Part shown: positions 2,085 to 59,245 of the stretch, one piece after another
Layout of the letters: each line of letters begins with the position of its first letter
Position numbering within the stretch: position 1 is the stretch's first letter
DNA from: Arcuatula senhousia
Taxonomy: Eukaryota; Mollusca; Bivalvia; Mytilida; Mytilidae
Direction: 5' to 3'
Assembly: GCA_963971305.1 (NCBI GenBank)
Contig: OZ020305.1
Coordinates: 11,937,001-12,001,000 of the forward strand
Length of the DNA: 64,000 nucleotides
The notes under the pieces: generated by a model
The model's input: the letters and a program-made list of their open reading frames with translations, nothing else
Databases searched by the model: none
Told to the model about the DNA's origin: nothing
Position numbers and translations under genes: made by a program

Positions 2085-3435
2085 TCACAGTTTTTGTCTC
2101 GCCTGCGACGAAAAGTCGCGGAAGGCGAGACATAGGTATTACTTTCCGGCGGCGGCGACGGCGGCGGCGGCGTCGTAAACTTTTTTGTAAGACTTTTGTG
2201 GACGATGAATTGCTGGAAAAGTATAATAGCTAGGCATCTGATATTTGGTATACAGACAGTTCAGGTTATGGTCTACGCAACTGTCACCATGCCGTGTGAC
2301 CCTGACCCCATTTATACGCTCCAGTGACTCTGTGAACTTAGGTGTTTTTTCAGGCTGTAAACTTTTTTGTAAGACTTTTGTGGACGATGAATTGCTGGAA
2401 AAGTATAATAGCTAGGCATCTGATATTGGGTATACAGACAGTTCAGGTTATGGTCTATGCAGCTGTCACCATGCCGTGTGACCCTGACCCCATTTGCACG
2501 CTCCAGTGACTCTGTGAACTTAGGTGTTTTTTCAGGCTGTAAACTTTTTTGTAAGACTTTTGTGGACGATGAATTGCTGGAAAAGTATAATAGCTAGGCA
2601 TCTGATATTTGGTATACAGACAGTTCAGGTTATGGTCTACGTAACTGTCACCATGCCGTGTGACCCTGACCCCATTTTCACGCTCCAGTGACTCTGTGAA
2701 CTTAGGTGTTTTTTCAGGCTGTAAACTTTTTTGTAAGACTTTTGTGGACGATGAATTGCTGGAAAAGTATAATAGCTAGGCATCTGATATTTAGTATACA
2801 GACAGTTCTGGTTATTGTCTACGCAACTGTCACCATGCCGTGTGACCCTGATCCCATTTTCACGCTCCAGTGACTCTTTGAACTTAGGTGTTTTTTCAGG
2901 CTGTAAACTTTTTTGTAAGACTTTTGTGGATGATGAATTGCTGGAAAAGTATAATAGCTAGGCATCTGATATTTGGTATACAGACAGTTCAGGTTTTGGT
3001 CTACGCAGCTGTCATCATGCCGTGTGACCCTGACCTCATTTTCACGCTCCAGTGACTCTGTTAACTTAGGTCTTTTTCAGGTAGAAAACTTTTTTGTAAG
3101 ACTTTTGTGGACGATGAATTGCTGGAAAAGTATAATAGCTAGGCATCTGATATTGGGTATACAGACAGTTGAGGTTATGGTTAACGTAACAGTCTCCATG
3201 CCATGTGACCATGACCCCATTTTTAGGGTCCAGTGACTCTGTGAACTTAGGGTTTTTTTTTCAGGCTGAAAACTTTTGTTTTGTGTGGACAATAAATTGC
3301 TTGAAAAGTTTAATAGCTAGGCATCTGATACTGGTTATACAGACACAATTTGTGTTTATATCAAGAAATGAAAGCTAAGGTGGTTGATTTTAGTGATGGT
3401 GCCGGCAGGCGAGACATACTTTTAGTGGCCACACT
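2085..3435. mobile_element. Tandem-core Helentron/pearl-like element A1
   Basis: From left to right: a terminal hairpin at about 2,098-2,132 (GTCTCGCCT, then CGAC/GTCG, then AAGGCGAGAC), a GGC/GGCGAC microsatellite (2,149-2,174), about six full copies plus a partial copy of a 182-bp monomer (monomer starts 2175, 2357, 2539, 2721, 2903, 3084, about 3,265), and a right end with GGCAGGCGAGACATAC. Hairpin, microsatellite and tandem core are the architecture described for Helentron-associated elements and bivalve 'pearl' repeats. Elements at 19,531-20,282 and 55,200-56,062 share it in the opposite orientation. No protein is encoded; short ORFs across the array are by-products of the repeat. Confidence 0.75.
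2175..3275. repeat. 182-bp tandem array
   Basis: Monomers begin with GTAAACTTTTTTGTAAGAC and contain GACGATGAATTGCTGG and CACCATGCCGTGTGACC. Starts are spaced 182, 182, 182, 182 and 181 bp. Divergence rises toward the right (3,084 onward), so the homogeneous left copies look more recently amplified or converted. Confidence 0.9.
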
Positions 3436-9654: not shown

Positions 9655-10160
9655 GGCATGCGTTTGTTGAAGCTTGGCAGTTTTGCCAACTCATTGATCT
9701 TGGTTTGCCAATTGAGTGTCTACTCGTATATAGGATAACCCTCTGGGTGCTCCATATGAACCCCTTTTTCAAAAGAGACTTTTTCGTCGATTTTTTTATT
9801 ATATTTCTCATAGTATTGAAGTAACCCAAGTATGAATAGAAGATATTGTTTGATGATATATTTGCATTATAAATGATTATGAAAAATGTAACAAAAAAGT
9901 AATCGAATAAAATCTCAGTCGTGAAATCGAAATGCTATAAGGAGCCTGAATCGCCCACTTGATCTTTAATGCTGAAACCTTTTTACCTAGAGTGCAAAGG
10001 GAAACTAACTCTCTGTAAGGAGTTGTCCCACAATTTTGGCTTAATGGAGAGTTATGTGAAGCTTTTGTCATGTTTGATGCTGAGGAATGAAGGTGGCCTC
10101 GGATTTTCTCTATGGTCTGATCCCCTATTCTATTTTTCGCAACGGTGACCATGTTGGTTG

Positions 10161-10772
10161 TGTAACCGGAGAGCATGAATTACGTCACAAAATCGACATG
10201 TCTAGATATAACCGGGGTTTTTCCGGCTACATAACATACACACAGAAACGGTAGTCCAATTTCAATAACTTTGTTTTAGCGATCTGTGTCCTTCCAGATC
10301 TAAGACCGAAACTGAATAAACAATACAAAATACAACAATATAAAATAACATGAAAATATAAGTAACTATGTAAACAGATTAATGTCTCTGGATTAGCAAG
10401 TCCTGCCGACAGGTCGCTAGCGCATTTAATAAACATTTCTGACAATAGAAATAATTAAAGATTTAGATAGGAAAACCGGACATGAAACAACTTATAAAAC
10501 ATCTAATAGGAATAACATAATTTAGCACTTATAAAAGATTACAATTATGAATCAATGTTCAAATTATAAACCAAAAGACAGATAAAGCCGAAACAATTGA
10601 ACTTTAAAAATTTCCACAAAATATCCCGGATATTGTCCTTACCGGGAATCGAACCCGAGACCTATAGGTTAACAGTCAGGCACTCTACCTCCAAACTAAA
10701 GAAGTACTTCCCTTGTTCAGGAATAAAGGCTTGCTATTTAAATCTACTAGGAAGAGGAGCAACCCTGTTACA
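10161..10772 (-). repeat. 3' LTR of miniature element 1 with 435-bp insertion
   Basis: Outer parts match the 169-bp partner LTR: 10,161-10,202 and about 10,638-10,772. Between them lie about 435 bp of foreign sequence starting near TATAACCGGGG and ending near AATATCCCGGATATT, a possible degenerate inverted repeat. The tRNA-like segment of this LTR is in 10,638-10,705; its A box is degraded while the B box (antisense GAATCGAACC) is intact. Confidence 0.75.
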
Positions 10773-10867
10773 CTTCCCCCTCCTCAAGAGTCATCATAAC
10801 TTCATGTATGACTCTTAACACAACCAACCCTGGCACGTTTTCCTGTTATAACCATCGTGGGTTTTTT

Positions 10868-10879
10868 AGTTGGGCGCCA
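10868..10879 (-). other. Primer binding site, tRNA-Lys type
   Basis: Minus strand TGGCGCCCAACT, one base after the LTR terminus. Its first 11 bases equal those of primer binding sites complementary to a tRNA-Lys 3' end in known retroelements; the match ends there. Confidence 0.75.
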
Positions 10880-10880
10880 A

Positions 10881-11049
10881 TGTAACCGGAGAGCATGAAT
10901 TACGTCACAAAATCGACATGTCCTGACCGGCAATCGAACCCGAGGTTAACAGTCATGCAGTCTACCTCTGAACCAAAGAAGTACTTCCCTTGTTCAGGGA
11001 GAAAGGCTGGCTATTTGAATCTACTAGGAAGGGGAGCAACCCCGTTACA
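10881..11049 (-). repeat. 5' LTR of miniature element 1 with tRNA-like core
   Basis: 169 bp, TG...CA ended. On the minus strand it holds an A-box-like TGGTTCAGAGG (10,975-10,965) and a B box GGTTCGATTGC (10,940 downward) with one change from consensus. About 8 bp between the boxes (the CTAGAGGTC part) are missing relative to the copies at 26.8-27.2 kb. Confidence 0.8.
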
Positions 11050-11479
11050 CTTGGTAGACATGCATTATTTCACAGACTTGGTATAGTACACCCTAAAGAC
11101 CGAGTGTACAATTCCTTTAGTGGTATCGGAAAATAAATCTTTAAAGAAAAGATAAATAACGGACGAACGCCGGACGCCCAGATATGACAATAGTTCACAT
11201 GACCCTTCGGGTCCGTTGTGCTAAACAAAAGGGGGGGTCATACGGGCGACCCAAGGGGTTAACTTGTATGCAAGTACCCGCGCTTTAACTGACGATTTTC
11301 AATACATATAAAGCAATCTAACTTTAAGTTTAGTGTCGAGACCTCTATATCTTAAGAACTGTAAATCCTAGGCTAAGAAACTTTAAAGGCATATGCCCCA
11401 GTAGTAGCTCAGCAGAGTTGTATTTCCATTTTTTTTTATCTTGACCTTGATCTGCCAGTTTAGTGATTTTGAAAATTTT

Positions 11480-11989: not shown

Positions 11990-13675
11990 ATGGCAACGAT
12001 CATTGCATGTGGCCCATGTGAGTTCCGTACTAAATCAACCCCTGCAGAATATTGGTGCCCGGAGTGCGAGGACTTGCTGTGTGAAGAGTGTAACAGCCAC
12101 CACAGTTCAGCTAAATCATCCAGAGATCATACTGCCATAAGCGTGGAAAATTATAGAAAACTACCATAGTCGGTACGCAAGGTCACTCAAATTTGTCCCA
12201 ACCATGGCATGAAATATGTCCATTTCTGTACTTCGCATAATACTACATGCTGTCCAGCATGCGTTTCAGGATTACACAAGTCATGCCCCGATTTACAATT
12301 GCTTGATGATGTTATCAAAACAGCCAAAACATCCAGTTTTATCGACGAAGTTGAGAGGAGCATAAAAGAAATTACATCAAACTTACAGAAAATTATTTTG
12401 GAACGTGATCAAAATTTTTCAAAGATGCAAAAACAGAAACGAGAAATTACGGACAAGATCGGCACTGTACGTAAAAACGTCAACAAGCACATTGACAAGT
12501 TACAGGAAAAGATGCTCGGAGAATTAAACCGCATTGAAGACAGTGAGACAAAGAAGTTGCAACAATCTAAGACTAGATTAACAGCCAAACTATACCTGGT
12601 TAAAAACAAGCTAGAGGAAACGACCATGCTAAAGCAGTACGCCTCAGACCTACAAACCTTTCTTGGAACTCGGGAAATAGAAAAAGTCATAGAGAAAGAA
12701 AAAACATGCTTAGATCATTTATCAAAGAACGGTTCCCTTAATATATACGAACTACAATGCAGCATCAACGATAAAATACAAAGCATTACATCCGATATTC
12801 AAACATTTGGTTCAGTATCAGTCATCTCTAAACCATCCACCGTCAGTCTGACATCCGACAAAGACAAACAGGCACAGATATTTATATCAACACCCCAACC
12901 AAACAGAATCAAATTTGAAAATACTATCACCAATTTAAAATCCAAGTTCAATATCCAAGGGTCAACACTAAGAGGAAGTTCTGTATTTCCCAATGGCAAA
13001 GTCGTCGTTGCCGATTGTTACAGTCGTGCAATCATTTCAAGCGAATCTGGTACAGTAGAGAAAGAAATCCCCATCAGAGGAGGAGGTCCATTTGATGTAA
13101 CAGTCATAGATGACAGATCAATCGCTGTATCTACATTAAATGGAGTAGTGATAGTAGACGTGAATACCGGCACTGTGGAGAGGACGTTTGATGTGGGTTA
13201 TAGTATGGGATTGTCCTATCATGACGGAGTATTGTACTGCTGTGTAGATAAGAAAGGCATCATTTCTATTGAGATGTCTACAGGGAGAAATAAAACATTT
13301 ATAGATGATAAACATCGATACATTTCATACTGTGCTTTGGCTGGTGATCAGTTATATTATACAAGGGCAGATAAGAAAGGTGTGCATTGTTATTCAGTCA
13401 CAGGAGAGAAGATGTGGGAGTTTGAAGACACAACACTGATCGATGGTCCTAGAGGTATTACTGCTGATAGCAGTGGTAACGTCTACCTGGCATCTTATGA
13501 AAACCACCAGATTGTGATGATATCTCCTGACGGACAAACGTGTAAACCAATACTGTCTGGTAATGACGGGATCGATAGGCCGTGGGGACTTTGCTACAAC
13601 AAGGAGAAGAATGAACTTTGTGTTGCCTGTGAACGTGCTCAGTTCTCCCGTTTTCAAGTTAAAAACCGGGAATGA
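11990..13675 (+). pseudogene. TRIM-like B-box/propeller gene, in-frame stop
   Basis: A 561-codon reading frame collinear over its whole length with the intact gene at 57,557-59,245. The start ATG lies 22 bp after a splice acceptor, as in the intact copy. It encodes B-box 1 (Cys/His ligands in residues 7-47), a second B-box (from CPNH to HKSC), a coiled coil (about residues 110-215) and a propeller-like C-terminal half with repeated GNVYLAS-type strands. Codon 60 is TAG (12,167-12,169), where the sister has GAT (Asp): two base changes between the B-boxes. Everything after it remains open to the TGA at 13,673-13,675. An internal ATG (12,209) could start a 488-residue product lacking B-box 1. 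The intact downstream frame suggests a recent lesion, a reinitiated short form or a polymorphism. The family acts in cytosolic signalling or innate immunity in other animals; no RING is present, so ligase activity is not expected. Confidence 0.88.
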
Positions 13676-20645: not shown

Positions 20646-21044
20646 CTGTGAGCTAATGCTCACTAGTGATACCCCCGCTCCCCAAACTATGCCACACATA
20701 CAAGTTTAAATACTCCGTAAACAAGAAGTAGTTGACATAGGAACATAAAATCGCTATACATTATATTAGACAAATGGATAAAGGTGTATACAAAATGTCA
20801 GACCTCTCTTTCATATAGTTGCCTGGGAAACTTTGACGGAAATTTTGCATTTATGTCCATTATGTGTAAAAACCTAAGTATTCTGTAAACAAGAAATAGA
20901 CTACCCAAGCATAAAATCGGTGTACACCATATGGTACTATAGGAAAAAGCTGTATATACAAAATATCAGACCTCTATCTGATGTATTTGCTAGGGAAACT
21001 GTGACAGAAATTTTGCATTTATGTCCATTATGCGTAAAACCCTA

Positions 21045-21440
21045 AGTAGTAATGTGCAGCACTATAGGTAAGAATGTACTTGATGACCCCGAGTTCATTC
21101 CCATATGTTCCATGTTAAATAGTTGCTATTTTTGTACTGAGAGAGCCACACTAGATCTCTAGCATGTAAAGTCGTGTGCAGTCATGCAGAACGGCAACTC
21201 GTCCCATAATTTCATCACTTTCTTTCGCCCCATTTATGTTATTATTATTTACTTATTAGTTATTATAACCCTTACTCTTTAACCCTAATCCTTATCCTAA
21301 CCCTAACTCTAATCTCTTACCCTAACCCTCACCCTAAAACTCTAACCCTTTCTTATCTCATCATTTCTTTTGAAAATGTCTCCCTTAATGGGCTCCTGAT
21401 TTCTTTTTTGTTTTTTTCTCTTTTGTCTTCGTTTTTTAAG
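21045..21440. repeat. Left TIR of Polinton-derived element
   Basis: Inverse of 25,010-25,326. The inner part (21,270-21,350) is a run of degenerate CCCTAA/CCCTAAC units. Confidence 0.85.
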
Positions 21441-21479
21441 CCTCGCTTTTTGTGGGCTCTTGTGTTGTAGCTCTTATTC

Positions 21480-21780
21480 TTGTGTTTTTTTATAGCTTTA
21501 CCTTCTTCCTCCTCCTCCTCCTCCTCATTTTCCCTGCTCGTGTCCTCATTTTCCCTCCTCTTTTCCTCCTCATTTTCCCTCCTCCTTTCCTCCTTTTCCC
21601 TCCTCCTCCTCTTCCTCATTTTCCCTCCTCCTTTCCCTCATTTTCTCTCCTCATTTTCCTCATTTTCCCTCCACTTCCTCATTTTCCCTCCTCCTTTCCT
21701 CATACCCCCCTCTTCCTCCTTCTTCCCTCATTTTCCTTCTCCTCCTCCTCCTCATTTTCTCTTGTTTTTTTACTTTTGAT
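21480..21780. repeat. Polypyrimidine TCCTCC/CATTTTCCC tract
   Basis: Low-complexity CT-rich sequence of about 300 bp with repeated CCTCATTTTCCCTCC. The mirror (GGAGGA) tract is at 24,784-24,925. Apparent proteins of Phe/Ser/Leu or Arg/Glu are artefacts. Confidence 0.9.
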
Positions 21781-21823
21781 CTTGTATTGCTCAACTCTTA
21801 TTGGTTGTTTTTTGGTTCGCCCT

Positions 21824-23304
21824 TTATGGGCTCTTTTTTGTCTTTGTTATTGTATTGATTGCTTTTATTTTCTTTAAACCTTTGTTGACTACCAATAAAA
21901 ACTCAAAATCGGGTACAACTTGTATTAACATTCCATAATACAGGTATTGCAGAACGGGGATGGAATCGTATCCTTTAAAGTGGTTGCAGATAACGGTGGA
22001 GTTCTTGTTGTCTCCGGAAAATAGCCAATTGCAAAAGTCGTTGTTGGTGTTGTGCCCTCTAAAGATGAGTTGGTTCTGTCCACAGTGCTTACAGCTACTG
22101 TCTTCAGTTACTTCCTCTTCCATGCACACTTTATGGACCACGCATAAGTGGGGTCGGTGCTCCATGGCTCCACAGGTACTGGCATTACAGTGTGAACATC
22201 TTCCGTCGGTGTCAGGTTGGTATCCCATTTCGTACACTACGAGGTCGTCTTGTGTGCTTTCAATATCAAAGAAAATATAGGTTTGTTTTTCTGGAGGGTC
22301 TTTGATTACTATGGGTGTCATGTAACACTGATGGTCTGGATTGCAGTTCTGTTTACAGGATGGACAGTACATGTCGCCACACACGTGCTCGCTTTTCCGT
22401 TTCTCCATGTTGAATGCGTGACTACAGTCTTTACACTTGAGTTGGTTTTCTTTGTTTGTTCTAAAAGGAGTTGGAAACACTCTTTTCCTTTAAAGTTTCC
22501 AGTTGATCCAGTCCTCCTCGCAGGGTTCGTGAATTTTCTTGCAAAGGATGCATGGGTTGTTGCATAAATGTCTTTCAGGATGATCGTGTCCTTTTTCACT
22601 CTCGGTGCAGTTATAGTTTCTGATCAAGAATCCTGTCATGGTAGTAATGACATCGTAATGGTCGTCGTGGTGGTAAAAGTAGATCTCCTTTTCCGCTTCT
22701 GGTCCCTCATAGATAATCCCGTTGAAGTAGTCCTTAGAAAAAAAACGGTTATTTGATATTCCGGCAGTACAGCTTGGAATTTTTCAAGTTCTTCAATGCC
22801 GCGTGCTCCATTTGGTACATAGGCTTTCTCGTGCAGTTGAAGGGCCAAGTATTCTTGCATGTATTTTCCATATCGGATGCTCTCCCATTTCGAGTGTTTA
22901 TCAATTCTTGCTTTAGCGGTGACAATGGCCCTTGCACAACATAGTTCGTCCTGGTTCCGGATTCTGATGATAGTTCGCTTGTCTTTTAACATTCTGTTGA
23001 GATCAACATAGTTGCATCTTTTGCGCCCTGATCATCCGGGAATAGATACGTGAAGAATATCTAATGCTAAGCTTCCATCCAGGACAAACTCTTCGTGAGA
23101 TTGTAATACCCTCTTTATTTCTTTTAATAGTAGGTCCGTAGTCAGGTCCTTGATTTGTAGTAGGGGCAGGGCGGTCGGGAAATCTAAAGAGTTGGTTTGT
23201 ATCGTCAGTTTTGAAAGGTCTTGTTCTTTCATCTCTTTTCCAATGGTTTGCAAGATGGAGTCTAATAGGTGATGTAGTGTTCTCATGATGGAAGGCAGGT
23301 TCAT
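21824..23304 (-). pseudogene. Polinton DNA polymerase B, N-terminal and exonuclease part (left arm)
   Basis: Fragments in several minus-strand frames: an N-terminal piece (23,304-23,032) ending in a stop, a middle piece (22,992-22,636) frameshifted inside a Phe-rich stretch, and a long piece (22,480-21,824). The last shows a Cys/His cluster (CKDC, CGDMYCPSC, CNPDHQC), then the 3'-5' exonuclease motif I FFDIEST (D72, E74 of the fragment) and motif II NHFKGYDSIPVL, as in protein-primed family B polymerases of Polintons. Coding ends shortly after, at the TCCTCC tract; the polymerase palm is missing. In an intact element the enzyme replicates the transposon from a terminal protein. This copy is clearly non-functional. 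Confidence 0.82.
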
Positions 23305-23929
23305 GACTTCGAATTCCTTAAAGCTTTCAAGTCAATCTTTTTTGAAGTTTTTCTTGTTTTTTTGTGTGTAAAATTTCATGGAAACGCTTTATTTAGCTCT
23401 TAAACGGCTTAAAATTGGCGTTAATTGGGGATGGGGAGGAGGCAAATGCGGGAGTGGATATTGGGGGCTGCTGCTGATAAGTAGCCATTATGCTGCTGAA
23501 AAGGGGGAAAATAGCTGCTCTTGCTGCTGAGAAAAACGGAAAATGACTGCTCTTCCAGTAGAAAGGGGTATGGGGATCTCGCTGTTTCATGGGAGGAATG
23601 AAAACGCTTATAAAAGTTTGGATACTTTATTGTGTAAATACAATCTTCTTTACACAGTCTTTTCCTCTTTCATGGGTTGGCTGGTGTCTTTTGGGCGTTC
23701 AGTGTATGCCTTTGCAAGTCTTCCTTTGGGGTTCTTTGTACATCTTGGCTTTCTTCTTCTGAGGTTCTTTGCTTCCTTTTCAAGTCTTCTTCTGCAAGTC
23801 TATATATGTTTGACAGGTTTTCTCCTCATTCTGTCTATGGGGTTGGTCTTTGACTTTGTAAGTCTTCCTTTGTTGGTCTCTACACGCTTGACTGATTTTC
23901 TGGTGTTCTCCTGGAAGGAAGCTTAACAT
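23066..23929. other. Unique spacer of the fold-back element
   Basis: Not duplicated between arms. On the minus strand it includes the beginning of the polymerase frame (to 23,304) and upstream AT-rich sequence with a 65-codon open frame (23,590-23,393, Pro/Ser/Ala-rich, unrecognised). The plus-strand 127-codon hydrophobic frame (23,543-23,926) is CTT-rich and has no recognisable family. Confidence 0.5.
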
Positions 23930-23934
23930 TAGAT

Positions 23935-24790
23935 ATCATTCACGTATCTATTCCTGGAGGATCAGGGCGCAAAAGATGCAACTATGTAGATCTCAATAGA
24001 ATGCTTAAAGAAAAGCAAAGTATCATCAGAATCCGGAAACAGGACGAACTATGCTGTATAAGGGCCATTGTCACCGCTAAAGCAAGAATTGATTAACACT
24101 CAAAATGGGAGAGCAAAATGGGAAAATACATGCAAAAATACTTCGCCCTTCAACTGCACGAGAAAGCCTTTGTACCAAAAGGACCACGCGGCATTGAAGA
24201 ACTTGAAAAATTCCAAGCTGTACTGCCGGAATATCAAATAACCGTTTTTTTTCTAAGGACTACTTCAACGGGATTATCCATGAAGGACCAGAAGCGGAAA
24301 AGAAGATCTACCTTTATCACCACGACGACCATTACGATGTCATTACTACTATGACAGGATTCTTGATCAGAAACTATAACTGCACCGAGTGTAAAAAAGG
24401 ATACGATCATCCTGAAAGACATGCATCATCCTTTGCAAGAAGATTCACGAACCCTGCAAGAAGGACTGGATCAACTGTAGCCATTGTGATAGAAACTTTA
24501 AAGGAAACGAGTTTCCAACTCCATTTAGAACAAACAAAGAAAACCAACTCAACGTGTAAATGGTACTACAAATGTAAAGACTGTGGTCAAACCTTCAACA
24601 TGGAGAAACGGAAAAGCGAGCACATGTGTGGCGAGATGTACTGTCCATCCTGTAAACAGTACTGCAATCCAGACCATCAGTGTTACATGACACCCATAGT
24701 AATCAAAGACCCTCCAGAAAAACAAACCTATATTTTCTTTGATTTTGAAAACACACAAGACGACCTCGTAGAGTGCGAAATGGGATACCG
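23935..24790 (+). pseudogene. Polinton DNA polymerase B fragment (right arm)
   Basis: Inverted copy of the left-arm polymerase starting at the equivalent of 23,065. It has a premature stop near 24,095, the same frameshift in the Phe-rich stretch near 24,245, and a piece from 24,351 with the Cys/His cluster and exonuclease motif I as FFDFENT (D and E kept). At about 24,784 the frame joins a GGAGGA tract, deleting exonuclease motif II, which the left arm retains. The shared frameshift indicates the arm was duplicated after the gene had already decayed. Confidence 0.8.
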
Positions 24791-24928
24791 AGGAGGAGGA
24801 AAAGGAGGAGGAGGAAGGAAAATGAGGAAAATAAGGAAAGGAGGAGGGAAAATGAGGAGAAAGATGAAGAGCAGGAGGAGGAGGAGGGAAAATGAGGAGG
24901 ATGAAGAGGAGGAGGAGGAGGAAGGTTA
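24784..24928. repeat. Polypurine GGAGGA tract
   Basis: GGAGGA/GGAAAATGAGG low-complexity sequence, the inverse counterpart of 21,480-21,780. Confidence 0.88.
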
Positions 24929-25009
24929 AACTATACAAAAACATAAGAATAAGAGCTACAACACAAGAGCCCACAAAAACGAGGCTTGAAAAACGAAGAA
25001 AAAACAAAA

Positions 25010-25326
25010 AAAAGGAATCAGGAGCCCATTAAAGGCGACACTTACAAAAGAAACAATGAGAGAAGAAAGGGTTAGAGTTTTAGGATGAGGGTAAGGGTAA
25101 GAGATTAGGGTTAGGATAAGTAACTAAAAATAACGTAAATGGGCGAAAGAAAGTGATGAAATTATGGGACAAGTCGTCGTTCCGCATGATTGCACACGAC
25201 TTTACATGCTAGAGATTTAGGGTGGCTCTCTCGGTACAAAAATAGCAACTATTTAACATGGAACCTATGGGAATGAACTCGGGGTCATCAAGTACATTCT
25301 TACCTATAGTGCTGCACATTACTACT
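25010..25326. repeat. Right TIR of Polinton-derived element
   Basis: Inverse of the left TIR, ending TAGTGCTGCACATTACTACT; includes degenerate GGGTTAG/GGGTAAG repeats (25,068-25,120). Confidence 0.85.
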
Positions 25327-25559
25327 ACTCTAAGGAAGTAGACTACCTAGGAGCATAACATCGGTATACACCATATGGTAGTATAGGATAAAGCTGTATA
25401 AAAAATATCAGACTTCTATCTCATGTAGATACTCAGAAAACTGCGACGGAAGTTTTGTTACAGACGGACGAACGGACAGGGGTAAAACAGTATACCCCCT
25501 CTTCTTCGAAGCGGGGGTATAATAAGATAAAAGGTTAAGACATATCATGTAAATTTATT

Positions 25560-26283
25560 GTTCCCCATTTCTATGAGTGACAAAACTTGTTCTATTATGG
25601 CAACTATGTGTATAATCCTAAGTATTCAGAAAACAGGAAGTAGTTGACCTAGGAGCATGGAATTGGTATACACTATATGGTACTTTAGGAGAAAGCTATG
25701 CCCAAAATATCAGACCTCTAGGTCATGAAGTTGCTAAGAAAATTGTGACGGAAATTTTGAATGTATGTACACTATGTGTAAAAACCTAAGTATTCAGTTA
25801 ACAGGAAGTAGTTGACCTAGGAGCATTAAATCGGTATACACCATATGGTACTATAGGAGAAAGTTGTAACCAAAATATCAGACCCCTAGGTCATGTAGTT
25901 GCTAAGAAAACTGTGGCGGAAAATTTGAATGTCTGTACACTATGTGTAAAAACATAAGTATTCGGTAAACAGGAAGTAATGAGAAAAATGAGGAAAATGA
26001 GGAAAGGAGAAGGGATAAATTTCTAATCTTGGTGTTGGCCAAGAACCATAAGGCAGATGTCTCTACATTAACTACTTGACCTAGTTGACCTAGGAGTATG
26101 AAATCGGTATACACCATATGGTACTATAGGAGAAAGCTTTACCCAAAATTTAAGACCTTTGCGTCATGTAGTTGCTGAGAAAACTGTGACGGAAATTATG
26201 TTACGGGCGGACGAACGGACGGACAAACGAACTGACAAGGGTAAACCAGCATACCCCCTCTTCTTCGAAGGGGGTATAAAAAA
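25560..26283. mobile_element. 168-bp tandem-core element B2
   Basis: Three to four monomers with CAGGAAGTAGTTGACCTAGG (starts at 25,634, 25,802, 25,970), then a GGACGAACGGACGGACAAAC microsatellite and the terminal hairpin ATACCCCCTCTTCTTCGAAG/GGGGTAT. It follows B1 head to tail and shares its terminus. One monomer is interrupted by a patchwork insertion at 25,977-26,085. Confidence 0.75.
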
Positions 26284-26754: not shown

Positions 26755-26939
26755 TGTTACCGGAGAGCATGAATTACTTCACAAAATCGACATGTCCTGG
26801 ACGGGAATCGAACCCGAGACCTCTAGGTTTACAGTCAGACGCTCTACCTCTGAACCAAAGAAGTACTTCCCTTGTTCAGGGATAAGGCTGGCTATTTAAA
26901 TCTACTAGTTAATGTACGAAGGGGAGCAACCCCGTTACA
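26755..26939 (-). repeat. 3' LTR of miniature element 2 with pol III boxes
   Basis: On the minus strand: A box TGGTTCAGAGG (26,857-26,847), B box GGTTCGATTCC (26,814-26,804), 43 bp start to start, the spacing found in tRNA genes. A TTTT run about 25-30 bp past the B box (antisense AAAA in CACAAAATCG) could terminate pol III. The anticodon-loop-like CTGTAAA would read GTA (Tyr). Confidence 0.82.
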
Positions 26940-27049
26940 CTTCCCCCTCCTAAAGAGTCATCATACCTCAAAGTATGACTCTTATCACAACAACATAACC
27001 CTGGCTAGGAATCCTTCTAACCACCGTGGGTTTTTCAGTTGGGCGCCAA

Positions 27050-27275
27050 TGTAACCGGAGAGCATGAATTACTTCACAAAATCGACATGTCCTGACCGGG
27101 AATCGAACCCGAGACCTCTAGGTTTACAGTCAGGCGCTCTACCTCTGAACCAAACCTCTAGGTTTACAGTCAGACGCTCTACCTCTGAACCAAAGAAGTA
27201 CTTCCCTTGTTTAGGGATAAAGGTTGGCTATTTAAATCTACTAATTAATGTACGAAGGGGAGCAACCCCGCTACA
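27050..27275 (-). repeat. 5' LTR of miniature element 2, internally duplicated
   Basis: About 40 bp covering the D-arm/anticodon part of the tRNA-like core is tandemly duplicated, giving two A boxes (27,192-27,182 and 27,152-27,142) upstream of one B box (27,109-27,099). Confidence 0.8.
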
Positions 27276-32974: not shown

Positions 32975-34215
32975 CAACTGTGCCTCTCTGACCCATCTTG
33001 AATATGTTGATGCCCACTTCCGGTTCATATATGTCGGGCTCAAATTTTATTTGCAGCGTTTTCCAGTCTTTGTTTAATTGGCTTTTGAAGCTGTTTACAG
33101 TTTTAGCTTCCACAGTACTAGCTGATAAACTATTCCAGGGGTTAACAGTTCTTTGGGAAAATATTTTCTTTCTCTTTTTGTCCTGGAATGCTTTTTAAAT
33201 AATTTCAGGTTGTGTCCCCTTGTATTGTTATTAATTGTGCTCAGTGGTAACATATTTCCTAGATCTATTTTGTCAATGTTTTTTAAGATTTTGAATGTTT
33301 GTATCATGTCTGCTCTTAGACGCCGGTATTGCAGTGATGGTATGCCCAATCTTGCTAGCCTATCACTATAGCTTAAGTGTTCTATGCTTCGTACCAGGCG
33401 TGTTGCCCTTCTTTGGACAGATTCTAATAATACGGCCTCCTTTTTGTTGATGACTGACCAGACTGTACTCGCATACTCAAGATGCGGACGAATCAGGCTT
33501 TTATATAATGTTACAAACATTTCTGGGTCTAGGTATTTGAATGACCTTTTAATTATTCCCAATTTCTGGTTTGCCTTATTGACCTGGTTCTGTATGTGCT
33601 CTTCAAACGAGAGATTCTCATCTATAATCACACCAAGGTCTTTTTCCGATGTAGTTGTATCTAGTATTTGACCTTCCATGTGATATCTATAGTCTGTATT
33701 TGTACCTAGGTGCTTGCATTTACTTTTATTATACTTTAATAGCCATTTGTCCGGCCATTTGGTGAGCTCATTAATGTCATTTTGCAGACTTTGACTTTCT
33801 TCATCATTTGTTACAGTTGCATACACCTTTGTGTCATCTGCAAAAAGTTTAACCATATTATCTAATGCATCTGGTAAGTCATTTATATAGATGGTGAAAA
33901 GAGTGGGACCCAGTACACTTCCCTGCGGTATTCCACTAGTGACCTCTTGCCACAGAGAGCTTTTGCCATTTAAAGTGACCCGTTGTTTCCTCTCTTGTAA
34001 AAAATCTTCCACCCATTGTAATAGATTTCCTGTTATACCATAGCCATTCAATTTTTGTATCAATCTTTTATGTGGCACTGTGTCGAAGGCCTTCTGAAAG
34101 TCTAGGTAGATACAATCAATTGCTTTTTGTTATCCAAGTCCTTTGACCATTTCTCTAATACTTCTAAAAGCTGGGTTACACATGAGCGCCCCTTTCTGAA
34201 ACCATGTTGATTTTT
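32975..34215 (-). pseudogene. LINE reverse transcriptase domain
   Basis: The main open part (34,078-33,095) has TSGIPQGSVLGPTLFTIYIN and the catalytic FADDTKVYA (FADD at 33,844-33,833), then the thumb and C-terminal HLEYASTVWSV and RRATRLV motifs. The upstream RT motifs (a GFRKGRSC-type segment) lie in another frame at 34,080-34,215. A frameshift near 33,130 moves the natural C-terminus to a stop near 32,975. Inactive. Confidence 0.85.
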
Positions 34216-50033: not shown

Positions 50034-50079
50034 TTACTTAACTCTAAGTGAACTCTAATTTGTCAAGTCTTCCAAAGCT

Positions 50080-50335
50080 GAATGGTTAGCGTTGTGGACA
50101 ATATGAAAAGAAAAAAAAAGCGTTGTGGACTATGGTGGGAGAGAATCGGGTTCGAATCCAGCTATGGACAAAACAATTTTTGTTATCGATTTAGATTTAT
50201 TATACACGTTTATACAATCAGAATGATTTAAATACCCCAATCAAACACTTTGAATCAAGCAATCGGTAGCCACAGGCTAAATGACATTGCCTGAAACGAG
50301 AAAGATTGCGGGTTCGAGGCCAGGCATGGCATAAG
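50080..50335 (+). other. Two tRNA-like modules
   Basis: Module 1 (50,073-50,170): TGGTTAGCGTTGTGGA (D-arm-like), a roughly 31-bp partial duplication, then GGGTTCGAATCCAGC (T arm with B box) and CTATGGACA, which pairs with TCCAAAG before the D arm. Module 2 (50,265-50,332): GGTAGCCACAGGCTAA, then GCGGGTTCGAGGCCAGGC. Neither folds into a complete tRNA, so they are most likely tRNA-derived SINE heads. Confidence 0.5.
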
Positions 50336-50339
50336 TTGT

Positions 50340-51180
50340 CAATAATGTATCGAATGTTATACTTGCTGCATTTTCCCATCAATCATTGACTTAGAAAATG
50401 TTAAAGTCACATAAATACTATTACTGACCGTCCAATATTAATTAAAATGAATCCAATATTAAGAAGAAAACAGTCCAATATTAAAACTAAACAGTTCTTT
50501 TCGGTAAAATAAAATACTGCATTAACAATGGCATGACGTCACAACTGTGTTTTAAGAAACTATTGACCTTAGGCTTTCAATACTTGGAATTTATCGTATG
50601 GTCGGATAAGTTTCTTGATATATATATCGTCTTCAGGTCTAAGGGTTTTTTTTTCCCATTAATTGCTTTCAGAATAGAGATTCTGTATAATTTTGTGTTG
50701 TCTGTGTGTTGTCTGTCAATTTCCATGGTCTTCAGCCGCCATCAGACTCCCTGGTACGAAGATCAAATATTTAAAGTCCCGCTTGGCAAATGAAGTAATG
50801 TATTTTAAAAAAAAATCCACATCCCACTGGTAGATCCAGAAAATGTTTATAAGACGGCATTGGTCATTCTTCACAGATTTCTTATTTTTCCATGTTTTGT
50901 TGTTCATATGATGATTTTTTGATGCATTATAAAATCTAAATATCATGATAAGCTTTCAGGAAATCACACGAATAAATGATTTTGCATCATTTACCCAAGA
51001 GCTTTGAGGCCTTCAGCAATCCCCATATCTGTTTAGTATGCTAGTTAATTCGCAGGATCCCTAACCAAATAAAAAGGCTTGTTTTTCTATGATCCCTTAT
51101 TGGCTTCAACTGGTACTTTTCTTTTTCTTATTTTAACCCCCGACAATGAACTTTTGAAAACTTTTAGCCAAAAGGTGAAC
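50340..51180. other. Intergenic, no gene recognised
   Basis: No supported gene. A TCCAATATTAA motif is repeated at 50,431-50,482. Confidence 0.45.
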
Positions 51181-55199: not shown

Positions 55200-56062
55200 A
55201 AGATATCAGATGCCTTGCTTTTATTCTTTTTTAAAGAAATTCATTTTCCACAAAAGTCTTACAAAGATGTTTACAGTCTGAAAAAAGTTCACAAAGTCAC
55301 TGAAGGGTGAAAATGGGGTTAAGGTCACACATTATGGTGACAGTTGCGTAGACCAAAACCTTAACTGTCTTTATACCAAATATCAGATGTCTAGTTATTT
55401 TACTTTTCAAGTACTTCATCTTCCACAAAGTCTTGAAAAGACGTTTTCGGCCTTCAAAAAACATAGTGCACGAAATCACTGCAGCATAAAACTGGAGTCA
55501 AGGTCACATGGCATGGTGACAGTTGTACCGGAACTGTCCTTATACCAAATACCCGATGCCTACCTATTATACTTTTCGAGAAATTTATTTTCCACAAAAG
55601 TCTAGATCTTACAAAGAAGTTTTTGGTCTGAAAAAAAAAAAGACATAAGTTCACAGAGTCACTTGAGCGTGAAATTTGTGTCAGGGTCATGCGGCAGGGT
55701 TACAGTTGCAAAAAACATAACCTGAACTGCTTGTATACCAAATATCAGATCCCGAGCTATTATACTTTTCAATAAATTTATTTTCCACAAAAGTCTTACA
55801 AAGAACTTTTTGGTCTGAAAAAAAGAAAGACCTAACTTCACAGAGTCACTGGAGCGTGAAAATGGGTCAAGGTCACACGGCATTGTTACAGTTGTATAGA
55901 CCATAACCTAATTTGTTTGTATACAAAATATCAGATGTCTAGCTTTTACACTTTTTAAGTTATTCATTTTCCACAAAAGTCTTACAAAGAAGTTTACGAC
56001 ACCGACGCCACCGGAAAGTAATACATATGTCTCGCCTACAGCGACTATTTGTCGAGGAGAGA
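55200..56062. mobile_element. Tandem-core Helentron/pearl-like element A3
   Basis: Inverse orientation to A1. About five monomers of roughly 180 bp with TTTTCCACAAAAGTCTTAC (near 55,245, 55,430, 55,588, 55,782, 55,968), then ACACCGACGCCACCGGAAAG (decayed microsatellite) and the terminal hairpin GTCTCGCCTACAGCGAC, TTGTCGAGGAGAGAC. The monomer is the reverse complement of the A1 monomer (shared ATACCAAATATCAGATG, ACGGCAT), more diverged. Confidence 0.75.
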
Positions 56063-57534: not shown

Positions 57535-57556
57535 GTCTGTATTGTAGCTATTAGAG

Positions 57557-59245
57557 ATGGCAACGATCATTGCATGTGGCCCATGTGAGGTCCGTACTAA
57601 ATCAACCCCTGCAGAATATTGGTGCCCGGAATGCGAGGACTTGCTATGTGAAGAGTGTAACAGCCATCACAGTTCAGCTAAATCATCCAGAGATCATTCT
57701 GCCATAAGCGTGGAAAATTATAGAAAACTACCAGATTCGGTTCGCAAGGTCACTCAAATTTGTCCTGACCATGGCATGAAATATGTCCATTTCTGTACTA
57801 CACATAATACTACATGCTGTCCAGCATGCGTTTCAGGATTACACAAGTCATGCCCCGATTTACAATTGCTTGATGATGTTATCAAAACGGCCAAAACATC
57901 CAGTTTAATCGATGAAGTTGAAAGGAGCATGAAAGAAATTACATCAAACTTACGGAAAATAATTTTGGAACGTGATCAAAATATTTCAGAGATACAAAAA
58001 CAGAAACGAGAAATTAAGGAGAAGATCGGCACTTTGCGTAAAAACGTCAACCAGCACATTGACAAGTTAGAAGAAAAGATGCTCAGAGAATTAAATCGTA
58101 TTGAAGACAGCGAGACAAAGAAGTTGCAACAATCTAAAACCAGTTTAACAGCCAAACTAGACCTGGTTGAAATCAAGTTAGAGGACATGACCATGTTAAA
58201 GCAGTACGCCTCAGATCTACAAACCTTTCTTGGAACTCGGGAAATAGAAAAGGTCATAGAGAAGGAGAAAACTTGCATTGGACATTTATCAAAAGACGGT
58301 TCCCTCAACATATACGAACTACAATACAGCATTAACGATAAAATACAAGCCATTACATCCGATATTCAAATGTTTGGTTCAGTATCTGTCATCTCTAAAC
58401 CATCAACCATCCGGCTGACATCCGACAAAGACAAACAGGCACAGATATTTATATCCACACCCCAACCAAACAGAATCGAATTTGAAAATGCTATCACCAA
58501 TTTTAAAGACAAGTTCAATATCCAATTGCAAGGGACAAGACTTAGAGGATGTTATGTAATGCCGAATGACAAATTCGTTGTTGCCGAAAGTCGTAACAGT
58601 CGTGTTATCATTTCACGTGAATATGGTACAGTAGAGAAAGAAATCCCCATCAGAGGAGGATATGGTCCACGGGACGTGACAGTCATAGACGACAGAACTA
58701 TCGCTGTATCTTCATCTAATGGAGTACAGATAGTAGACGTGAATACCGGCACTGTGGATAGGACGTTTGATGTGGGATGGTGTTATGGATTGTCCTTCTA
58801 TGATAGAATGTTGTACTGCTGTGTATCTAAGAAAGGCGTCATTTCTATTGAGATGTCTACAGGGAGAAATAAAACAATTATAGATGATAAACATGAATAT
58901 CAGTCGTACTGTGCCGTGGCTAGTGGTCATTTATATTATACAAGAGCAGACATTAACAGTTTGCAGTGTTATTCCATTACGGGAGAGAAGAAATGGGAGT
59001 ATGAAGACACAGCTTCGATCAATAGTCTAAGAGGCGTTACTGTTGACGGTAGCGGTAACGTCTACCTGGCATCTTATGGAAAGAATCAGATTCTAATGAT
59101 ATCTCCTGATGGACAAAGATGTAGAACGATACTGTCTGGTAAGGACAGGATCAAAGATCCATGGGGACTTTGCTACAAAAAGAACAAAAATCAACTTTGT
59201 GTTGTCTGTGAATATGGTCAGTGCTTCGTTTTCGAAATCAAATAG
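57557..59245 (+). CDS. Double B-box, coiled-coil, propeller protein (TRIM-like, no RING)
   Basis: An intact 562-residue protein in one exon. Residues 7-47 form B-box type 1 (C7, C10, C23, C26, C31, C34, H37, H47). Residues 69-99 form a B-box 2-like finger (C69, H72, C80, H83, C88, C91, H96, C99). Residues about 110-215 are a Lys/Glu-rich coiled coil for oligomerisation. Residues about 290-562 repeat hydrophobic strand patterns (DVTVIDDRTIAVSSSNG, GVTVDGSGNVYLASYGKNQI, DPWGLCYKKNKNQLCV) like an NHL-type six-bladed propeller. There is no RING before B-box 1, so it is unlikely to be a ubiquitin ligase by itself; relatives serve as adaptors in innate immunity or RNA regulation. The start is the first ATG after the conserved splice acceptor, and the sister copy aligns from the same residue. 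Bivalves carry large, lineage-specific sets of such genes. No exact orthologue can be named. Confidence 0.93.
   Translation: MATIIACGPCEVRTKSTPAEYWCPECEDLLCEECNSHHSSAKSSRDHSAISVENYRKLPDSVRKVTQICPDHGMKYVHFCTTHNTTCCPACVSGLHKSCPDLQLLDDVIKTAKTSSLIDEVERSMKEITSNLRKIILERDQNISEIQKQKREIKEKIGTLRKNVNQHIDKLEEKMLRELNRIEDSETKKLQQSKTSLTAKLDLVEIKLEDMTMLKQYASDLQTFLGTREIEKVIEKEKTCIGHLSKDGSLNIYELQYSINDKIQAITSDIQMFGSVSVISKPSTIRLTSDKDKQAQIFISTPQPNRIEFENAITNFKDKFNIQLQGTRLRGCYVMPNDKFVVAESRNSRVIISREYGTVEKEIPIRGGYGPRDVTVIDDRTIAVSSSNGVQIVDVNTGTVDRTFDVGWCYGLSFYDRMLYCCVSKKGVISIEMSTGRNKTIIDDKHEYQSYCAVASGHLYYTRADINSLQCYSITGEKKWEYEDTASINSLRGVTVDGSGNVYLASYGKNQILMISPDGQRCRTILSGKDRIKDPWGLCYKKNKNQLCVVCEYGQCFVFEIK

Follow-up and report, generated by a model that had tools for sequence, protein, structure and literature searches.

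Two miniature LTR retrotransposons with a tRNA-like stretch in their LTRs, very probably of the Helenus type, in the bivalve Arcuatula senhousia

The window analysed here, that is, the whole 64-kb stretch of Arcuatula senhousia DNA, contains two miniature LTR retrotransposons, and the original prediction, which had noticed both of them, is confirmed in this observation (Table 1). We conclude with high confidence that the two copies form a single family and are TRIMs of the Helenus type, in which a short, non-autonomous LTR retrotransposon has a tRNA-derived internal promoter in its LTR; the assignment is based on features by which Helenus has been described. Of these, the following are present in the window: two LTRs accompanied by a primer binding site (PBS) and a polypurine tract (PPT), a short length, a sense tRNA-like part with an A and a B box, and a PBS of tRNA type.

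The name Helenus was given by Kojima 2024 to TRIMs with tRNA-like sequence in their LTRs (PMC10886601). In bivalves 51 families were described across five orders, Mytilida among them, and the mollusc hosts are pteriomorphian bivalves, Mytilidae included; the reported length is 311-1263 bp, animal families have 4-bp TSDs, the primers in bivalves are tRNA Lys, His, Ile, Pro, Glu or Ser, and Gypsy elements share the PBS region with Helenus (PMC10886601). Transcription of Helenus by pol III is the author's proposal, stated to be without experimental validation, and the term TRIMp3 was proposed for Helenus, Ajax and Cassandra together (PMC10886601); a meeting report of 2026 repeats the Helenus finding (PMC12859917). 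Thus, the suggestion that a tRNA-promoter version in a mollusc had gone undescribed fails, since this work describes the kind as Helenus from bivalves that include Mytilidae. What is already known is the kind of element, whatever the family of these copies. They resemble Helenus in being TRIMs with the A and B boxes of a tRNA-like sequence in the LTRs, a tRNA-Lys PBS, as in some bivalve families, and a PPT; they differ from it in flanks that agree at 3/4 positions only, where animal families have a 4-bp TSD (PMC10886601), and in a 40-bp A-box duplication in one LTR, which is a copy-specific change.

Both elements lie on the minus strand and show the predicted order LTR-PBS-internal-PPT-LTR, with internal domains of 110 and 108 bp where about 110 bp had been expected. 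Read in the sense direction, the LTR starts with TGTA and ends with ACA, and it is followed by one spacer base, the PBS core, the internal domain, the purine tract and the second LTR. The limits predicted for copy 2 are exact; the element predicted at 10,154-11,055 is there as well, but is slightly shorter at either end than had been given. In copy 2 the LTRs are identical to each other at 178/185 aligned sites (96.2%, K2P 0.039), with two gaps totalling 41 bp, 40 of which are the tandem duplication, and the split 3' LTR of copy 1 matches its 5' LTR at 114/127 sites with two gaps over one piece and at 42/42 over the other (blastn). The internal domains of the two copies are identical at 91/106 sites (85.8%). 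The predicted lack of an ORF is borne out in copy 2, where stops break all three sense frames and no long ORF is left; for copy 1 the ORF list has no stop-to-stop frame of at least 110 aa. The insert that splits the 3' LTR of copy 1 (10203-10633) is 431 bp long, has TGTC at either side and no stop-to-stop frame of 110 aa in the ORF list; its ends are loosely alike by eye when inverted, and it is perhaps a MITE.

Table 1. Positions of the two elements and of their parts in the 64-kb window.
Feature	Position	Strand	Remark
Copy 1, complete element with foreign insert	10161..11049	-	889 bp including the insert
Copy 1 5' LTR	10881..11049	-	169 bp
Copy 1 5' LTR A box	10965..10975	-	
Copy 1 5' LTR B box	10930..10940	-	one mismatch, GGTTCGATTGC
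Copy 1 5' LTR TTTT run	10909..10912	-	
Copy 1 PBS core	10869..10879	-	same core as in copy 2, TGGCGCCCAAC
Copy 1 internal domain	10773..10880	-	108 bp
Copy 1 internal-domain hairpin	10786..10816	-	31-nt inverted repeat
Copy 1 polypurine tract	10773..10785	-	GAGGAGGGGGAAG; directly before 3' LTR
Copy 1 3' LTR	10161..10772	-	split by insert 10203-10633
Copy 1 3' LTR degenerate A box	10688-10698	-	
Copy 1 3' LTR B box	10645-10655	-	
Copy 1 3' LTR TTTT run	10189-10192	-	beyond the insert
Copy 2, complete element	26755..27275	-	521 bp; TG..CA LTR boundaries, internal domain, nhmmer/blastn matches
Copy 2 5' LTR	27050..27275	-	226 bp, with 40-bp tandem duplication of A-box region
Copy 2 5' LTR TATA-like stretch	27229..27236	-	TTTAAATA; consensus match only
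Copy 2 5' LTR A box, first (duplicated)	27182..27192	-	pattern match
Copy 2 5' LTR A box, second	27142..27152	-	pattern match
Copy 2 5' LTR B box	27099..27109	-	GGTTCGATTCC; pattern match
Copy 2 5' LTR TTTT run	27078..27081	-	downstream of tRNA-like part
Copy 2 PBS core	27038..27048	-	TGGCGCCCAAC; tRNA-Lys1,2 type, 11/11 nt, divergent after
Copy 2 internal domain	26940..27049	-	110 bp
Copy 2 internal-domain hairpin	26953..26983	-	31-nt inverted repeat
Copy 2 polypurine tract	26940..26951	-	AGGAGGGGGAAG; directly before 3' LTR
Copy 2 3' LTR	26755..26939	-	185 bp
Copy 2 3' LTR TATA-like stretch	26893..26900	-	TTTAAATA; consensus match only
Copy 2 3' LTR A box	26847..26857	-	TGGTTCAGAGG; pattern match
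Copy 2 3' LTR B box	26804..26814	-	GGTTCGATTCC; pattern match
Copy 2 3' LTR TTTT run	26783..26786	-	

The signals for reverse transcription are placed as predicted, with the PBS core right after the 5' LTR and the PPT right before the 3' LTR in both copies. The exact string TGGCGCCCAAC, searched on both strands, occurs at only two sites in the 64-kb window, those of copies 1 and 2, and an autonomous partner bearing the same core was found nowhere else in it. The leading 11 nt after the spacer are those of the tRNA-Lys1,2 PBS printed in PMC1084362, which stands here in place of a bivalve tRNA set, and only 8 leading nt are shared with the tRNA-Lys3 PBS. Over the whole 18-nt PBS the identities to tRNA-Lys1,2 and tRNA-Lys3 are 11 and 10 in copy 2 and 11 and 11 in copy 1; as both types are about equal over this length, tRNA-Lys1,2 is favoured by the leading run only. 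The 4-bp flanks read AGTG/TGTG in copy 2 and GTTG/CTTG in copy 1, three of the four positions agreeing in each, an agreement (3/4 or better) that has a chance of 0.063 per copy at this base composition; the flanks are suggestive of target duplications and may represent them. Just 5' of the PPT the internal domain contains a hairpin whose stem, AAGAGTCAT/ATGACTCTT, is kept in both copies, with a loop that differs. Folding of the whole internal domains is somewhat more stable than that of shuffled sequences (z -1.74, with 9/200 as good, and z -2.41, with 4/200), and the hairpin may serve in packaging or dimerisation.

As claimed, all four LTRs have a sense tRNA-like stretch with sites for an A and a B box, always at one and the same place, but the pair of boxes is intact in only two of them, those of copy 2. 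In copy 1, the 5' LTR retains the A box, while its B box has one mismatch and 8 bp between the two are deleted; in the 3' LTR the B box is intact and the A box degenerate. The 3' LTR of copy 2 agrees with the prediction in the spacing of its boxes (43 bp start to start), in the GTA loop letters and in the TTTT run, which lies 17 bp past the B box. In the 5' LTR of copy 2 the A box is doubled by a 40-bp tandem duplication (27115-27194) of that half of the tRNA-like part which contains it; the two units differ at one site. A strict scan of both strands for an A box followed by a B box 20-60 bp on gave two matches in the 64-kb window, both in copy 2, and none in 200 dinucleotide-preserving shuffles. 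The B box alone, with up to two mismatches, is not enriched in the window (10 matches, 11.09 expected from shuffles); thus the A and B pair and the position in the LTR carry the weight. The shared place in all the LTRs, together with the 85.8% identity of the internal domains, shows that the tRNA-like part was present in the common ancestor, before the copies separated.

A tRNA gene was considered for this part and rejected. ARAGORN, run with the bacterial code, gave 0 genes, Rfam at the gathering level gave no match across the 64-kb window, and the acceptor stem is unpaired by eye; judged from these sequence features, the part is therefore promoter-like, with no recognisable tRNA gene. At E up to 10, Rfam matches copy 2 ten times and copy 1 once, all far under the gathering scores; left out of these counts are 3 and 2 further same-clan matches, which overlap others and score lower. 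The best E-values, 0.0022 and 0.0034, come from the tmRNA model, which picks up a T arm of 15 nt, and the next match is YrlA, Y-RNA-like, at E 0.12 with 20.3 bits where 69 are required. The YrlA family also has a tRNA-like domain.

The most probable alternative is a TRIM transcribed by pol II that once received a tRNA-derived SINE in its LTR and in which the tRNA-like part now plays no role in transcription. This explanation, which fits the Helenus anatomy and not the pol III step, we consider unlikely, yet it draws on several observations. The TATA-like TTTAAATA stands upstream of the tRNA-like part, exact in 3/4 LTRs and with one change in the fourth, so a pol II start from it is possible and transcription independent of pol II is putative; moreover, no tRNA gene was recognised, each LTR of copy 1 has one decayed box, and an origin of Helenus by SINE insertion was proposed by Kojima (PMC10886601). 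An insertion of this kind would nevertheless have to be ancestral to both copies, given the common place of the tRNA-like part in the four LTRs and the divergence of the internal domains, and neither a SINE tail nor a target duplication was seen around it by eye.

The termination signals bear on the pol III model in both directions. Each of the three LTRs that are not interrupted has a single TTTT run just past its tRNA-like part (in the 3' LTR of copy 1 the insert lies between them), and TTTT is absent from the internal domains of both copies. Against the model, a lone T4 run so placed occurs in 4.6% of shuffles when one LTR and the internal domain are shuffled together, so that its placement is weak support, and the TTTT of the 5' LTR should end many pol III transcripts early. 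A scan of three LTRs and both internal domains gave no AATAAA or ATTAAA poly(A) signal.

For a Helenus-type element we propose that the RNA would start in the 5' LTR close to its tRNA-like part, by pol III or by pol II via the TATA-like box, that the TTTT of the 5' LTR would be bypassed and that the transcript would stop at the TTTT of the 3' LTR, with the formation of an RNA carrying a repeat of about 90 nt at both ends and so suited to strand transfer. Gag, reverse transcriptase and integrase would be provided by an autonomous element, probably Gypsy, tRNA-Lys bound at the PBS would serve as primer for reverse transcription, and the PPT would prime the second strand. A more elaborate version, which we put forward as a speculation with small odds of being right in full, makes the copies a new Helenus family. 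Its R region would extend from the start of pol III transcription to the sole TTTT of the LTR, the 5' bypass and 3' stop would set the amount of genomic RNA, and the internal hairpin would be the signal by which the RNA dimerises or is packaged by the Gypsy partner.

The parallel with Cassandra drawn in the original prediction, along with the notion of a TRIM carrying a tRNA-type pol III promoter in the LTR of a mollusc element, is right as far as it is testable, that is, for the parts, the boxes, the PBS and the PPT, and the interpretation as a whole is partly supported. Cassandra is likewise a TRIM whose LTR contains a pol III promoter, and its RNA, with an 18-bp repeat, is started by the promoter in the 5' LTR and ended by the terminator in the 3' LTR (PMC10886601). 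It is, however, derived from 5S rRNA and found in plants, whereas the present elements are tRNA-derived and belong to a bivalve; no Rfam match to 5S rRNA was obtained in the window at the gathering level or in the two copies at E up to 10, which sets them apart from Cassandra. Ajax, of nemerteans, is another animal TRIM with the promoter of a small-RNA gene in its LTR, and differs in being 5S-derived and in having a 5-bp TSD (PMC10886601).

It is very improbable that the copies belong to biv-TRIM (Satovic 2019, PMC6934838) and not to Helenus. Also a short non-autonomous LTR element of bivalves, biv-TRIM is alike in size class and host group, but its repeats of 202-218 bp, internal part of 77-80 bp, PPT GGGGAGA and lack of a clear PBS are all unlike what is found here (PMC6934838). 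It was rejected by the letters too, a comparison made with two TDR primer sites and the internal motif TGATCCCAAAGGAC in place of the full sequence, in which these fit the copies no better than they fit shuffles (81 to 198 of 200 as good or better). The words 'polymerase III' are absent from the main text of that article (PMC6934838). Finally, a tandem or tRNA-SINE array that resembles an LTR element by chance is hardly credible, for although tandem repeats are common in the window, the PBS core and the PPT adjoin the LTRs and the TG..CA ends are in place in both copies.

With the LTRs as queries, nhmmer and blastn detected no solo LTR in the window, which leaves two copies in all. Two weak LTR matches, at 50145 (E 0.23) and 50299 (E 4.9), seem to be due to no more than a similarity to the B box, and antisense matches inside the LTRs reflect a palindromic stretch. 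Two more tRNA-like stretches lie on the plus strand at 50070-50170 and 50260-50340, with the B-box-like GGTTCGAATCC and GGTTCGAGGCC; by eye they are perhaps remnants of tRNA-derived SINEs. Three element-specific patterns gave 0 matches in a viral contig collection. Nine viral contig records that match a 16-nt LTR-end pattern were taken as chance, since in blastn neither the internal domain of copy 2 nor its 3' LTR gave anything beyond 16-19 nt. In a genome contig collection the patterns gave 0 and 3 matches, and these three are unrelated, overlapping ordinary bacterial tRNA genes.

Several other features of the window were recorded. A large imperfect palindrome occupies 20700-26200, with arms at 22568-22869/24121-24422 and others that are 88-95% complementary and with 168-bp repeats flanking; the three ORFs scanned in it have no Pfam match. 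A tandem repeat of about 182 bp and an inverted relative (spacing about 170-190 bp) lie at opposite ends of the window, at 2159-3383 and 55229-56013, and are 78-86% complementary. Two related tripartite-motif-like genes, at 12170-13675 and 57548-59245, share stretches at 95% and 83% DNA identity; by Pfam the former has NHL and the latter B-box and NHL. For the B-box/NHL protein (57557-59242) the organism names among the 87 relatives listed are all Mytilus, at 25-35% identity; the best match, at 37%, carries no such name. For the reverse transcriptase at 33098-34129, Pinctada imbricata accounts for six of the entries with a named source among the best 120 of 7592 matches (52-64%), the others being a bacterial MAG and an invertebrate metagenome. 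These names agree with a bivalve host, probably a pteriomorphian one.

The question that matters is whether pol III makes the RNA that is reverse-transcribed. Among the matches listed in the literature on Helenus, TRIMp3, Cassandra and pol III, there is no paper that tests a pol III origin of this RNA. That a reading from raw sequence reached independently a class of elements published in 2024 is support for the existence of TRIMs with tRNA promoters in bivalves.
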